Origin: a virus
DNA length: 53,092 nucleotides
Virus record (IMG/VR): IMGVR_UViG_3300025294_000135
Coordinates: 1 to 53,092 of that record
Strand: one strand, 5' to 3'
The notes beneath the pieces are model-generated. The model worked only from the letters and a program-made list of their open reading frames with translations. It did not search any database and was not told the origin of the DNA. How positions within the stretch are numbered: the stretch's first letter is position 1; the number at the start of each line of letters is the position of its first letter. The position numbers were made by a program, and so were the translations under genes. Below are positions 19,774 to 24,167 of the stretch, in pieces.

Positions 19774-20754
19774 TCACAACCTTGTTTTGATCTTCCGAGC
19801 CGGAACTGGGTGAGCGACGTAGTACATCCACGTCACAGCATCCGGATCGAAGGTGAACACCTCTGGGTCGTTGTAGCTGCCCAGGCGGATGCCTTGGCGG
19901 CGAGATAGCAGGCGCTTGATCATGGTCTCGCCGGTGTTGAGGCGGACCAGGACGTCGTCTTCCAACTCCGGCTCTGTGCCAGGCTCCACGAGCGCAAATT
20001 CCCCCGGATTGAAACGCGGAATCATCGAAAGCCCGACCACGGGTGTCAGAAATGCGAGCGGGTCGGCGCTGGCCACCTCTGCGAACTGCTGTGTTGCTTC
20101 CACCGGATAGTCTCCATCCGTCCATATCCGCTCCGGCAGGCCGCCCTGGGCGCGTCCGATCACCGGAATCTCACGGTACTTTGCGACGTTGGCCTGGTAG
20201 GTGAGCGGGGTGGCGTCTGCTGGTTCGGGATCTTTCTTCTTCGGTTTTGCTGTCTTGGGTGGTACCGGGCGTGGACGCGGGTCGTCGTAGACCGCGGCGC
20301 GCGGCATTCCCTTGCCCATCACCAACCACACGGCGTTGAAGCCGAACGCTTCCTGGATGCCCACCGCCTGGTCCAGCGAGATCGTCTTGATCTCGCCCGA
20401 TCTCCATCCGTTGACTGTCTCTTGCGTCACCCCGGCGGCCCTCGCGAGCGCGGCGGGGCGCACATCCGGGTCTTGAAGGACCAAGTTGATTCGCTCGCTC
20501 AGGCCGTCGACCGAATCGTTCGCGGTCCGAATCGATTCGTCGTAGGTCATTGACCCCTTGCCAGTCTGCAACCAGGTCGCACTGCAGCCGATGTGCTTCT
20601 GCGCCTCGATCATGCCCGGCCGCGACATGCCGCGGCGCTCCCAGTTGTTCACCGTCTGCTGGGATTGGTTCAGCGCCCGAGCAACGTCGGTTGGCGTCTC
20701 AAGTTTCTTGAGGATTCGTGCGGCCTCGTAGAGGCGGACCATGGTTGGATGCAT
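19774..20754 (-). CDS. cI: CI-type repressor with two tandem HTH domains and a S24 peptidase domain
   Basis: A 326-aa protein (from Met at 20754). HTH-1 (about 20-63: TDVARALNQSQQTVNNWERRG, ATWLQTGKG) and HTH-2 (about 98-149: AALARAAGVTQETVNGWRSG, AVWLVMGKG) look like copies of one CI-type domain. After a P/K-rich linker comes a LexA/S24 domain: RAQGG (201-205) at the expected cleavage position, Ser243 in GLSMIPRF and Lys280 in MIKRL. The scissile pair would be Gly-Gly instead of Ala-Gly, so RecA-driven cleavage may be altered. Start is uncertain: 20742 is possible, and the longer frame to 20838 would run through the operators. Confidence 0.88.
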   Translation of the reverse strand: MHPTMVRLYEAARILKKLETPTDVARALNQSQQTVNNWERRGMSRPGMIEAQKHIGCSATWLQTGKGSMTYDESIRTANDSVDGLSERINLVLQDPDVRPAALARAAGVTQETVNGWRSGEIKTISLDQAVGIQEAFGFNAVWLVMGKGMPRAAVYDDPRPRPVPPKTAKPKKKDPEPADATPLTYQANVAKYREIPVIGRAQGGLPERIWTDGDYPVEATQQFAEVASADPLAFLTPVVGLSMIPRFNPGEFALVEPGTEPELEDDVLVRLNTGETMIKRLLSRRQGIRLGSYNDPEVFTFDPDAVTWMYYVAHPVPARKIKTRL

Positions 20755-20773
20755 GCGCGCGATGGTCTCATAT

Positions 20774-20830
20774 GTAAACGGCCCGTTGATAAACAGCGTG
20801 TTTGCCTTTTCGTTAAACGTAGTGTTTAAT
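20774..20830 (+). promoter_or_regulatory. Rightward promoter PR and operators (OR)
   Basis: TTGCCT (20802-20807), 17 bases, TTTAAT (20825-20830). Operators: TTAAACGTAGTGTTTAA (20813-20829) on the -10; ATAAACAGCGTGTTTGC (20789-20805) on the -35, 24 bp centre to centre; a weaker GTAAACGGCCCGTTGAT (20774-20790). The first two copy the PL geometry exactly. The repressor promoter must run the other way from this region; a weak TTAACG/TTTATC pair on the minus strand (20811-20816 and 20788-20793) is the best candidate. Confidence 0.8.
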
Positions 20831-20836
20831 GTGGTC

Positions 20837-21052
20837 ATGGAACCCGACGCCTCTATCGCTATGGACCGTGAACTCATTGATCGCCTTGGCGGCCCCGCCA
20901 AGGTCGCTGAACTGCTTGGCTTCGACAAGAAGGGAGGCGTTCAACGCGTCCACAACTGGAAGGAGCGGGGGATTCCTCCTGCCGTGAAGCTGGCCTACCC
21001 GGACATCTTTCTGCATCCCCCGAAGGCCGACGAGCCAGCCGTCCCGGTCTGA
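20837..21052 (+). CDS. cro: Cro-like repressor
   Basis: A 71-aa HTH protein: MDRELIDRLGGPAKVAELLG then GVQRVHNWKERGIPPAVKLAYPDIF, the pattern of Cro/YdaS-type phage proteins (GGxxKVAxxLG-x-W-xxRGIP). It is divergent from cI and follows OR. ATG 20837 lies only six bases after the -10 box and has no ribosome site, so the message is probably leaderless; the Met at 20861 is an alternative start, also without a ribosome site. Confidence 0.85.
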   Translation: MEPDASIAMDRELIDRLGGPAKVAELLGFDKKGGVQRVHNWKERGIPPAVKLAYPDIFLHPPKADEPAVPV

Positions 21053-21055
21053 TCC

Positions 21056-21081
21056 AAAGGCGTCTTCTCGACGCCTTTATT
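21056..21081 (+). terminator. Terminator after cro (tR1-like)
   Basis: AAAGGCGTC / GACGCCTTT stem with TTCTC loop followed by ATTT. Its place directly after cro, before the replication genes, corresponds to lambda tR1 and implies some readthrough or antitermination. Confidence 0.7.
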
Positions 21082-21724: not shown

Positions 21725-21898
21725 ATGGACGCACAACAGGCACTCCAGGCACAGCGCCGCTACATCAACGAGCTTTTGCACCGGATGACGGTGGCCGAGA
21801 CGCGCGGCGCCCGGCTGTACCTGGTTGCCGAGACGAAGCGGGCGATCGACGAGCTGGAAAGCATGCTGTTGGCGCGCGCGGCAGGGACGCACCCATGA
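21725..21898 (+). CDS. Hypothetical 57-aa helical protein
   Basis: MDAQQALQAQRRYINELLHR followed by MTVAETRGARLYLVAETKRAIDELESMLLARAAG: continuous amphipathic helix, likely coiled coil. Seven bases after the previous stop; its stop overlaps the start of the replication gene. Unknown function. Confidence 0.55.
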   Translation: MDAQQALQAQRRYINELLHRMTVAETRGARLYLVAETKRAIDELESMLLARAAGTHP

Positions 21899-22782
21899 AC
21901 TACTACGAGCGCCACATCGGCGACTACATCCGCGACACGGTCAGCCTGACCATGCTCGAGGATGGCGCATACAACCGCCTGCTCGACCAGTACTACCAGA
22001 CCGAGCGGCCTTTGCCCGCCGACAAGAAAGAGATCTACCGCCTGGCCCGCGCCAACAGCGCGCCGGAGCGCAAGGCTGTCGACTATGTTCTGCAACGCTA
22101 CTTCGAAGCCACGTCGGAGGGTTACCGTCAGAAGCGGTGTGACGAAGTGATCGAGGATTTCTGGGAGCGCGATCACGGGAAGGAATCCAAGCGGGAGAAC
22201 GACCGCGAGCGCCAGCGCCGCGCGCGAGAGCGCCGGGCGAACCTGTTCGACGAGCTTCGCAGTCACGGTATTGTCCCTGCGTTCAATACACCGACACGCG
22301 AGCTGCAAACACAGTTGTCACGCGTGACAGAGCGTGACGAGTCGAAGAATGTCACGCGTGACAACACGGCTACCCAGACGCCACTCCCCAATCCCCAAGA
22401 TATAACCACCACTGACGTGGTGGTCGTCGACAGCGTGGCTGCCGACCCGACTTTGACCCCGGCCAAGCCTGCAAAGCCAGACTGCCCGCATCAGGCCATC
22501 GTGGCGCTGTACCACGAGCTGCTGCCCATGTGCCCTGGCATCCGAGATTGGACGCCGGCCCGTGCGCAAGCCCTGCGTGCCCGGTGGAACGAAGACCCGA
22601 AGCGGCAGGACCTGGCCTACTGGCGCAAGTTCTTCGGCTACGTTGCCGAATCCGACTTCCTGACCGGGCGCAGCAGCAGCGCTGGCCGCAAGCCGTTCCT
22701 GGCCAGCCTGGACTGGATCGTGAAGGCCGAGAACTTCACGAAGATCCGTGAGGGCCGCTACCACGAGCAGGTGACCGCATGA
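21895..22782 (+). CDS. DUF1376-type phage replication initiator
   Basis: A 295-aa protein. The N-terminal ~110 residues (MNYYERHIGDYIRDTVSLTM, LEDGAYNRLLDQYYQTERPLP) are the DUF1376 domain found in phage replication proteins; a basic RERQRRARERR stretch and a low-complexity linker follow; the C-terminal ~90 residues (LPMCPGIRDWTPAR, LAYWRKFFGYVAESDFLTGR, FLASLDWIVKAENFTKI) resemble the helicase-loading end of such initiators. It overlaps dnaB by ATGA. Two identical 14-bp palindromes in the linker-coding part suggest that the origin is within the gene, as in lambda O. Confidence 0.85.
   Translation: MNYYERHIGDYIRDTVSLTMLEDGAYNRLLDQYYQTERPLPADKKEIYRLARANSAPERKAVDYVLQRYFEATSEGYRQKRCDEVIEDFWERDHGKESKRENDRERQRRARERRANLFDELRSHGIVPAFNTPTRELQTQLSRVTERDESKNVTRDNTATQTPLPNPQDITTTDVVVVDSVAADPTLTPAKPAKPDCPHQAIVALYHELLPMCPGIRDWTPARAQALRARWNEDPKRQDLAYWRKFFGYVAESDFLTGRSSSAGRKPFLASLDWIVKAENFTKIREGRYHEQVTA
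22316..22424. other. Candidate replication origin inside the initiator gene
   Basis: TGTCACGCGTGACA occurs as a perfect palindrome at 22316-22329 and again at 22350-22363 (34-bp spacing), with a half site GCGTGAC at 22333-22339 between. They are followed by an AT-richer stretch and an 8-bp hairpin ACCACCAC/GTGGTGGT at 22405-22424. The encoded protein part is a low-complexity linker, so the DNA sequence rather than the protein seems to be conserved here. Confidence 0.55.
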
Positions 22783-24167
22783 ACGCGCCCGACGATTTCC
22801 CGCAGGCGCGCGTGTTGCACAGCATCGAGGCAGAACAGGCTGTGCTGGGTGGGCTTCTGCTTGACAACGACGCGGTCGATCGCCTCAACGGACTCGACGC
22901 TGCGCACTTCTGGCGCGAGGACCACCGCACAGTGTTCTCGCAGATCGTGCGGCTCGTGTCGGCCAACCGCCCAGCCGACGTGATCACCGTCTTCGAGGCC
23001 TTGCAGTCGCAAGGACAATCCGAGCGCGTCGGTGGTCTGGCATACCTGAACTCGCTGGCGCAAAACACGCCGAGCGCGGCCAACATCGCGCGCTATGCCG
23101 ACATCGTGCGTGACCGCGCGCTGATGCGCGACACAGCGGCCGCTGCCCGCAAGGTGCTCGAGTTGGTCGAGACGCCCGGGCCGATGAAGGGTGCAGAGAT
23201 CGTCGACAAGGCGCAGGCACTGCTCGGCCAGATCGCGCAGGTGGGCGTGCGCCGCGAGCCGAAGATGCTGCGCGACCTGATGACCGCGTTCGTGGACGAG
23301 GTCGACGCGCGCTACCACAGCGACGCTCCGACGGGCATTTCCACGGGCATCGCCTCGCTCGACCAGGCGCTCAACGGCGGCCTGCACGATGGAAATCTCG
23401 TGATCGTGGCGGGTCGCCCGTCGATGGGAAAGACCGCGCTGACGACCGACATCGGCCTGAACATCGCCGCCGAGCACAGCGTGCTGCTGCTGTCGATGGA
23501 GATGTCGGACAGGGAGATCGTAGCGCGCGCCACGGCGAATCGCGGTGGCCTGCATCTGGGCGCGCTGTTGCGTGGGCAGATGGGCGATAAGGACTGGCCA
23601 CGTCTGACACACGCGATCCAGCGCATCGATGACTTGCGTTTCGCGGTAGATGACACGCCAGCCCTTTCGCTGATGGACGTGCGCATGAAGGCGAAGGGAC
23701 ACCAGCGCCGGCATGGCCTCGACGTGCTGATCGTCGACTACCTCGGCCTGATGTCCGGCGGCGAAGAGAAGCAGCGGACGCAGCAGATCGGTGCCTACTC
23801 GCGCGGGCTGAAAAGCTTGGCCAAGGATCTGAACATCCCTGTCGTTGCGCTGGCGCAGCTCAGCCGCAAAAACGAGGACCGGCCCGACAAGAAGCCGATC
23901 CTGTCCGATCTGCGCGACTCGGGCGACATCGAGCAGGACGCCGACGTCGTGATGTTCGTGCACCGCCCCGAAATGTACGACCCAAGCAACGAAGAGCTGA
24001 AGGGCTACGCCGAGGTGCTGATCCGCAAGCAGCGCAACGGCGCGCTTGGCGATGTTCCTCTGCGCTATCTCGGCGCCCAGACCAAATTCGATGAATGGAC
24101 CGGGCCGCTGCCGATGCTGAGCTACGGCCCGGCCGTCCGCAAGCGCGGCATCGCCGCCGATCTGTGA
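22779..24167 (+). CDS. dnaB: Replicative DNA helicase DnaB
   Basis: A 462-aa RecA-fold hexameric helicase. N-terminal domain HSIEAEQAVLGGLLLDNDA; linker; Walker A GRPSMGKTA (212-220); LLSMEMSDREIVAR; Walker B VLIVDYLGLM; ALAQLSRKNEDRPDKKPILSDLRDSGDIEQDADVV, the arginine-finger region. Length and order are those of bacterial DnaB, so the phage carries its own replicative helicase. The neighbouring DUF1376 protein likely loads it. Overlaps that gene by four bases. Confidence 0.95.
   Translation: MNAPDDFPQARVLHSIEAEQAVLGGLLLDNDAVDRLNGLDAAHFWREDHRTVFSQIVRLVSANRPADVITVFEALQSQGQSERVGGLAYLNSLAQNTPSAANIARYADIVRDRALMRDTAAAARKVLELVETPGPMKGAEIVDKAQALLGQIAQVGVRREPKMLRDLMTAFVDEVDARYHSDAPTGISTGIASLDQALNGGLHDGNLVIVAGRPSMGKTALTTDIGLNIAAEHSVLLLSMEMSDREIVARATANRGGLHLGALLRGQMGDKDWPRLTHAIQRIDDLRFAVDDTPALSLMDVRMKAKGHQRRHGLDVLIVDYLGLMSGGEEKQRTQQIGAYSRGLKSLAKDLNIPVVALAQLSRKNEDRPDKKPILSDLRDSGDIEQDADVVMFVHRPEMYDPSNEELKGYAEVLIRKQRNGALGDVPLRYLGAQTKFDEWTGPLPMLSYGPAVRKRGIAADL

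Follow-up and report, generated by a model that had tools for sequence, protein, structure and literature searches.

Replication origins placed inside the gene of their own initiator are already known in principle from phages lambda and SPP1. In lambda, as also in Stx phages, ori is found in the middle of gene O, where repeated initiator-binding sites are followed by an AT-rich region (PMC7466680), and oriL of SPP1 lies inside gene 38 and combines initiator-bound direct repeats in that initiator's own gene with an unwinding element (PMC6316719). An active origin, oriJ, is also present in the Rac prophage (PMC3945230). Within the open-access literature, no paper on DUF1376 origins was found, and a search for the sequence GTCACGCGTGAC returned one paper only, which was unrelated.

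The locus analysed here belongs to a stretch of 53,092 nt (referred to as the window), comprising positions 1 to 53,092 of IMG/VR virus record IMGVR_UViG_3300025294_000135. The record also encodes an Erf recombinase, an S24-type repressor and a terminase, which makes a temperate phage likely. The following features were recognised:

21895–22782, plus strand: replication initiator gene of the DUF1376/YdaU type, 295 aa (PF07120, E = 5.1e-28; PHROG primosomal and replication initiation families)
21898–22152, plus strand: DUF1376 domain (Pfam residues 2–86; AF2 pLDDT above 90 over most of the domain)
22207–22236, plus strand: basic segment ERQRRARERR, residues 105–114 (AF2 model; co-variation with the half-site)
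22316–22329, no strand assigned: palindrome 1, TGTCACGCGTGACA, codons L141–T145, with inverted half-sites GTCAC at 22317 and GTGAC at 22324
22333–22338, no strand assigned: isolated half-site CGTGAC (GTGAC at 22334), 10 bp past the right half of palindrome 1 (spacing peaks of relatives)
22350–22363, no strand assigned: palindrome 2, TGTCACGCGTGACA, codons 152–157 in another frame, with half-sites at 22351 and 22358
22364–22404, plus strand: CA-rich, G-poor tract (C 44%, A 32%, G 12%; composition and linkers of relatives)
22405–22424, plus strand: hairpin ACCACCAC-TGAC-GTGGTGGT, stem of 8 bp, TGAC loop with C-G as closing pair (compensatory changes across relatives)
22483–22770, plus strand: C-terminal helical domain of the initiator (CPHQ...), found in relatives with quite different N-domains
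22779–24167, plus strand: DnaB-type replicative helicase, the next gene (PF03796, E = 1.6e-86; PF00772, E = 3.7e-30)

Region 22316–22424 consists of three parts, namely GTCAC/GTGAC half-sites phased at ~ 11 bp (7 bp when inverted), a CA-rich tract and a hairpin, all contained in ORF 21895–22782. Judging from sequence comparison, we consider it probable that this element represents the theta-type replication origin of the phage inside its own initiator gene, with initiator binding, melting, helicase loading and replication start being inferred. Initiator molecules would bind the phased half-sites through a basic helix past the DUF1376 winged helix, and the ~ 11-bp repeat would place them on one face of the DNA. 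The initiator complex would then open the adjoining G-poor CA-rich tract, a candidate single-strand region, whereupon the hairpin could form on the single strands and the C-terminal domain of the initiator may recruit DnaB from the next gene, either at the opened region or at the hairpin.

As in lambda, the window has repeated sites in the middle of the initiator gene, and the C-terminal half of its protein matches the ‘O-like’ PHROG phrog_345, albeit over residues 140–291 only. No homology to lambda O was found over the DNA-binding N-domain, which in Pfam matched PF07120 only (97.7 bits, cut-off 30.1) and identifies the protein as a member of the DUF1376/YdaU family. Unlike lambda, the window carries a DUF1376 N-domain with a basic helix, half-sites of about 6 bp phased at ~ 11 bp, a tract that is CA-rich and not strongly AT-rich, a covarying hairpin and, as the next gene, the DnaB helicase itself. 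SPP1 differs from the window in having a loader (gp39), a helicase (gp40) and a second origin (oriR). What the window shares with origins of the lambda/SPP1 type is an initiator gene that contains several putative binding sites. E. coli Rac ydaU belongs by annotation to the same family (DUF1376) and has phased linker repeats as in the window, but its repeat word is different and its next gene encodes an ATPase (ydaV), not DnaB. In the K-12 copy (L288:6472–6577), TGTTCAA-type repeats lie 33, 33 and 12 bp apart and are accompanied by an inverted copy; they are candidates for binding sites related to oriJ, the coordinates of which were not found.

The DUF1376 domain was modelled by AF2 with a winged-helix-like fold, with the basic segment lying within one long helix (residues 80–123) that extends from it. 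The codons that make up the palindromes correspond to the end of the helix that follows and to a disordered linker. From this model and from the co-variation reported below, we propose ERQRRARERR as the putative reader of the half-sites, its binding being inferred, and the C-terminal helical domain as the helicase-recruiting part. An NCBIfam search gave no match, and neither the PDB fold search nor the PDB sequence search gave a significant one, which was counted against an in-gene origin. GC skew within the window showed no switch at 22.4 kb. Elsewhere in the window, a terminator-like hairpin with a 9-bp stem, AAAGGCGTC-TTCTC-GACGCCTTT, was seen at 21056–21078, directly past a Cro-like ORF (20741–21052).

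The original prediction had described two perfect copies of the 14-mer TGTCACGCGTGACA 34 bp apart, with a half-site between them and an 8-bp hairpin downstream, and all of these were confirmed, 34 bp being the distance from start to start, with 20 bp between the copies. No further copy exists in the window or in the whole record; the chance expectation for a given 14-mer in 53 kb is about 2e-4 occurrences. When up to three mismatches were allowed, ~ 4 matches were expected in shuffled sequences, and only the two perfect ones were observed. The 50 bp concerned also form the densest GTCAC/GTGAC cluster of the window (5 of 111 sites), with spacings of 7, 10, 17, 24 and 34 bp between half-sites. 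Not covered by the prediction were the additional half-site classes, the connection with the basic helix, the CA-rich tract and the occurrence of similar sites in non-DUF1376 initiators.

Relatives were collected by protein searches of viral contigs and bacterial genomes, giving 122 unique DUF1376 genes, which were classed by the segment past the DUF1376 domain: RQRRxRERR followed by LF (the basic helix), NRLKRHREER followed by LF, SANARW and GGRP. In this set, picked by protein alone, the palindrome was present in 16 of ~ 19 RQRR-type genes vs none of 71 genes of the GGRP, SANARW and NRLKRH types. Eight of the ~ 19 RQRR-type genes, including five of the 16 palindrome carriers, were left as ‘other’ by regular expression and assigned by eye. 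The condition set for refuting the prediction, absence of the palindromes in close relatives with the same initiator, was not fulfilled, most genes of this type having retained the palindrome; many relatives carry a single palindrome only. The palindrome was found alongside several different C-terminal domains and was mostly missing from relatives that share the C-terminal domain of the window and have another N-domain, suggesting that it follows the N-terminal/basic part; one exception, L022, has GTCAC repeats behind a different N-domain that likewise includes a ERKRDQRERERQ segment.

The two copies in the window are read as LSRVT and NVTRDN, i.e. in different codon frames, so that a repeat in the protein does not explain them, and the half-sites of relatives are likewise read in several frames. 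If linker peptides such as VTRD, SRVT and PAT were themselves selected, the DNA repeats could be a by-product of low complexity at the protein level, as would agree with the recurrence of VTRDNT in the same frame in many relatives. Identity of DNA across frames speaks against this, as do spacings of 10–11 bp, which are not multiples of 3, and word counts several-fold above those in synonymous-codon shuffles, in which protein and codon usage were kept. In RQRR-type linkers, CGCGTGAC was counted 60 times vs 8.7 in shuffles and CACGCGTG 26 times vs 1.1; SANARW linkers had 54 occurrences of CGAACGCA vs 4.3 (25 of 30 genes), GGRP linkers 150 of AACCCA vs 34 (39 of 40 genes), and GTCAC and GTGAC together reached 499 (shuffle mean 291, maximum 311). 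On account of the two frames and the shuffling results, a protein-level repeat was rejected as a sufficient explanation, and we give it next to no credence.

Same-orientation spacings of GTCAC/GTGAC in 66 genes peaked at 10–12, 21–24, 33–35 and 43–45 bp (e.g. 33 vs 2.1 at 10 bp and 32 vs 1.8 at 22 bp) and inverted spacings at 7, 17–18 and 28–29 bp. Nearly half of these genes had been picked as palindrome holders, which inflates the count for inverted sites at 7 bp. AACCCA showed peaks at 11 (39 vs 0.8), 22 and 33–34 bp, with inverted peaks at 7, 18 and 29 bp, and GAACGCA at 11, 22–23 and 35 bp. Individual GGRP- and SANARW-type genes with linker repeats of AACCCA or GAACGCA at ~ 11-bp phasing include L222, L231, L161 and L235. 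Different words in a similar geometry have the look of an array of putative sites on one DNA face.

The half-site word also changed with the basic segment: ERQRR was accompanied by GTCACG, ERVRR by GTAACG and NRLKR by GCAACG/GAAACG. In LF-type segments the word is associated with the residue that comes after the initial Arg, which is Q107 in the window protein: GTCACG was dominant in 28 of 29 genes with Q or K at this position and in none of 18 with V, L, M, T or S (Fisher p = 4e-12, without correction for kinship). The latter 18 had GTAACG, GCAACG or GAAACG instead, one of them with GTCACG tied with GCAACG. A tree built from the DUF1376 domain only (149 rows) required no fewer than 24 changes of the basic class and 23 of the motif; only seven independent pairs lay on supported branches, and in these the motif went along in 5.5 on average and never in the opposite direction (p about 0.03). 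Segment and half-sites are neighbours in the DNA and would be co-inherited even without recognition, and the case against mere linkage rests on no more than a few point variants, L225 among them.

These data also bear on whether the sites might belong to a host factor or another phage factor, for instance a ParB/parS-like or nucleoid protein, and merely hitch-hike in a tolerant linker. TGTCACGCGTGACA does loosely resemble the parS sequence, TGTTTCACGTGAAACA. Such a factor would not be expected to have half-sites that change with the initiator's own basic segment among phages, nor spacing rules common to three half-site families, and we regard its involvement as very unlikely.

The tract between palindromes and hairpin is a candidate melting region, its melting being inferred. 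The linkers of the three large DUF1376 classes all dip in G content and rise modestly in AT, in both cases beyond synonymous expectation, and have tandem CACCAGACA-like repeats. Every one of the 25 loci that share the C-terminal domain of the window had the hairpin, its stem constant at 8 bp and its loop at 4 nt. Across 14 distinct hairpin sequences, Pseudomonas phage phi297 included, all 112 of 112 cells were Watson-Crick paired, with double changes in seven of the eight pairs (31 double-change cells) and no one-sided or G-U change. A bare 8-bp hairpin is fairly likely by chance in this protein family, arising in 10% of synonymous shuffles owing to amino-acid context; a fixed stem length, loop and position, in contrast, are rare. 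Hairpins of the form C-TRR(C/A)-G with stems of at least 6 bp were found in 26 of 178 initiator genes vs 0–5 in synonymous shuffles, with none on the opposite strand and 0–6 for control loops. Two of the 26 sit in non-DUF1376 initiators, and the strict hairpin is limited to ~ 15% of initiators. Where both features were present, 73 half-sites preceded the hairpin and three followed it, at a median distance of 53 bp that is CA-rich in between. Aeromonas phages phiA005 and 4_L372X (L374 and L380) have two 6-bp hairpins in tandem, AGATAC-TAAC-GTATCT and GTCTAC-TGAC-GTAGAC, just ahead of the C-domain match; the loop is again of the C-TRRC-G form.

A hairpin of this kind could in principle act in mRNA, together with the palindromes, through folding or control of translation. 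The two palindromes could pair into a 16-bp stem with a 20-nt loop, and the hairpin is always on the coding strand. However, an RNA hairpin between palindromes was dropped as a general reading since many relatives have a single palindrome, the half-site spacing has a helical period, and neither a T-run nor a start codon is nearby. The 31 double changes without any G-U or one-sided change are atypical of RNA, and the absence of G-U points to DNA instead. We find an RNA element very hard to reconcile with this record.

A scan of viral contigs for the 14-mer, based on DNA only, gave at least 120 stretches, compared with 17 for a control palindrome of the same composition (full scan). Among the matches listed, 23 loci had a DUF1376 gene, and the palindrome lay inside that gene in 23 of 23. 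After removal of near-identical lineages from the matches listed, a strongly basic segment was found within 70 residues upstream in 45 of 84 loci, compared with 193 of 1680 random positions (p = 2e-19) and with none of 15 loci of the control palindrome. The pair of basic segment and palindrome recurs in phage replication proteins without DUF1376; 17 of 20 non-DUF1376 carriers examined matched PHROGs, 16 of them replication initiation, replisome organiser, DnaD-like or primosomal families. In one such initiator (L088:4382–4440) a 45-bp unit with the palindrome is repeated in tandem (VSRVTSRDCHGVVTD twice). Gram-positive replisome organisers (PF09681) were matched in only four of 149 genomes, and the one match inspected was partly masked. 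One lineage of a short conserved phage ORF (~ 138 codons), represented by L041, L042, L044, L050 and ~ 26 further loci, has the exact palindrome fixed, probably as a chance match and without a half-site cluster. The notion that the palindrome marks any phage gene was dropped, as ~ 30 of the at least 120 matches listed belong to this lineage and others are scattered. An exact match alone is therefore not diagnostic, whereas the basic segment and half-site cluster are.

Recurrence of the same words inside unrelated initiator genes also weighs against an autoregulatory role, in which the initiator or another phage regulator would bind the palindromes and repress the initiator-dnaB operon without any direct part in replication start. 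The palindromes do form a dimer-type site inside the operon, and many plasmid initiators are autoregulatory too. The sites, however, lie ~ 420 bp into the gene and not at a promoter, and several half-sites in helical phasing, followed in fixed order by a CA-rich tract and a hairpin, fit an origin better. We consider an operator without origin function improbable.

The original proposal of an in-gene origin of a DUF1376-type initiator is accordingly supported by comparison, through retention of the palindrome, phasing, synonymous excess and hairpin covariation, with origin activity and binding remaining inferred. Anatomy, order, DNA-level constraint, phasing, co-variation of half-site and basic segment, and covariation in the hairpin were all read from sequence; binding of the initiator to its own half-sites, melting of the tract, guidance of helicase loading or priming by the hairpin, and replication start were inferred, and no replication, binding or marker-frequency data stand behind them. 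Plasmids with YdaU-type genes were considered as a natural replication test and were not decisive: pSWBY1 encodes a RepM of its own, and a 52.8-kb Pseudomonas ‘plasmid’ with a YdaU-type gene looks like a circularised phage. The former (L382), a resistance plasmid from Acinetobacter, carries a YdaU-family gene and an ATPase gene beside RepM.

As a broader hypothesis, which we take seriously without yet expecting it to hold, the basic segment and its cognate half-site would form a swappable self-addressing cassette on several unrelated initiator scaffolds. The half-site would be determined by a few residues (GTCACG by Q, GTAACG by V, GCAACG/GAAACG by L), and the spacing would be invariant at 11 bp for direct and 7 bp for inverted sites. 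The place of helicase loading would be marked by a DNA hairpin of the C-TRRC-G type with a defined strand orientation. Within the open-access papers searched, this lineage of initiators, the common geometry in which half-sites can be exchanged, their connection with a basic helix and the covarying DNA hairpin appear to be new.

To our knowledge, the origins of most temperate phages are unknown. If the origin reading is true, those of many DUF1376-type and related phages could be read from sequence, and low-complexity linkers such as VTRD, NANAMRTH, ETQEKP, PATAPAT and QTPDT would represent origin DNA that is translated incidentally. Coordinated changes in segment and half-site would offer a natural set for decoding a rule of protein-DNA recognition, and the hairpin would be a testable helicase-loading signal.
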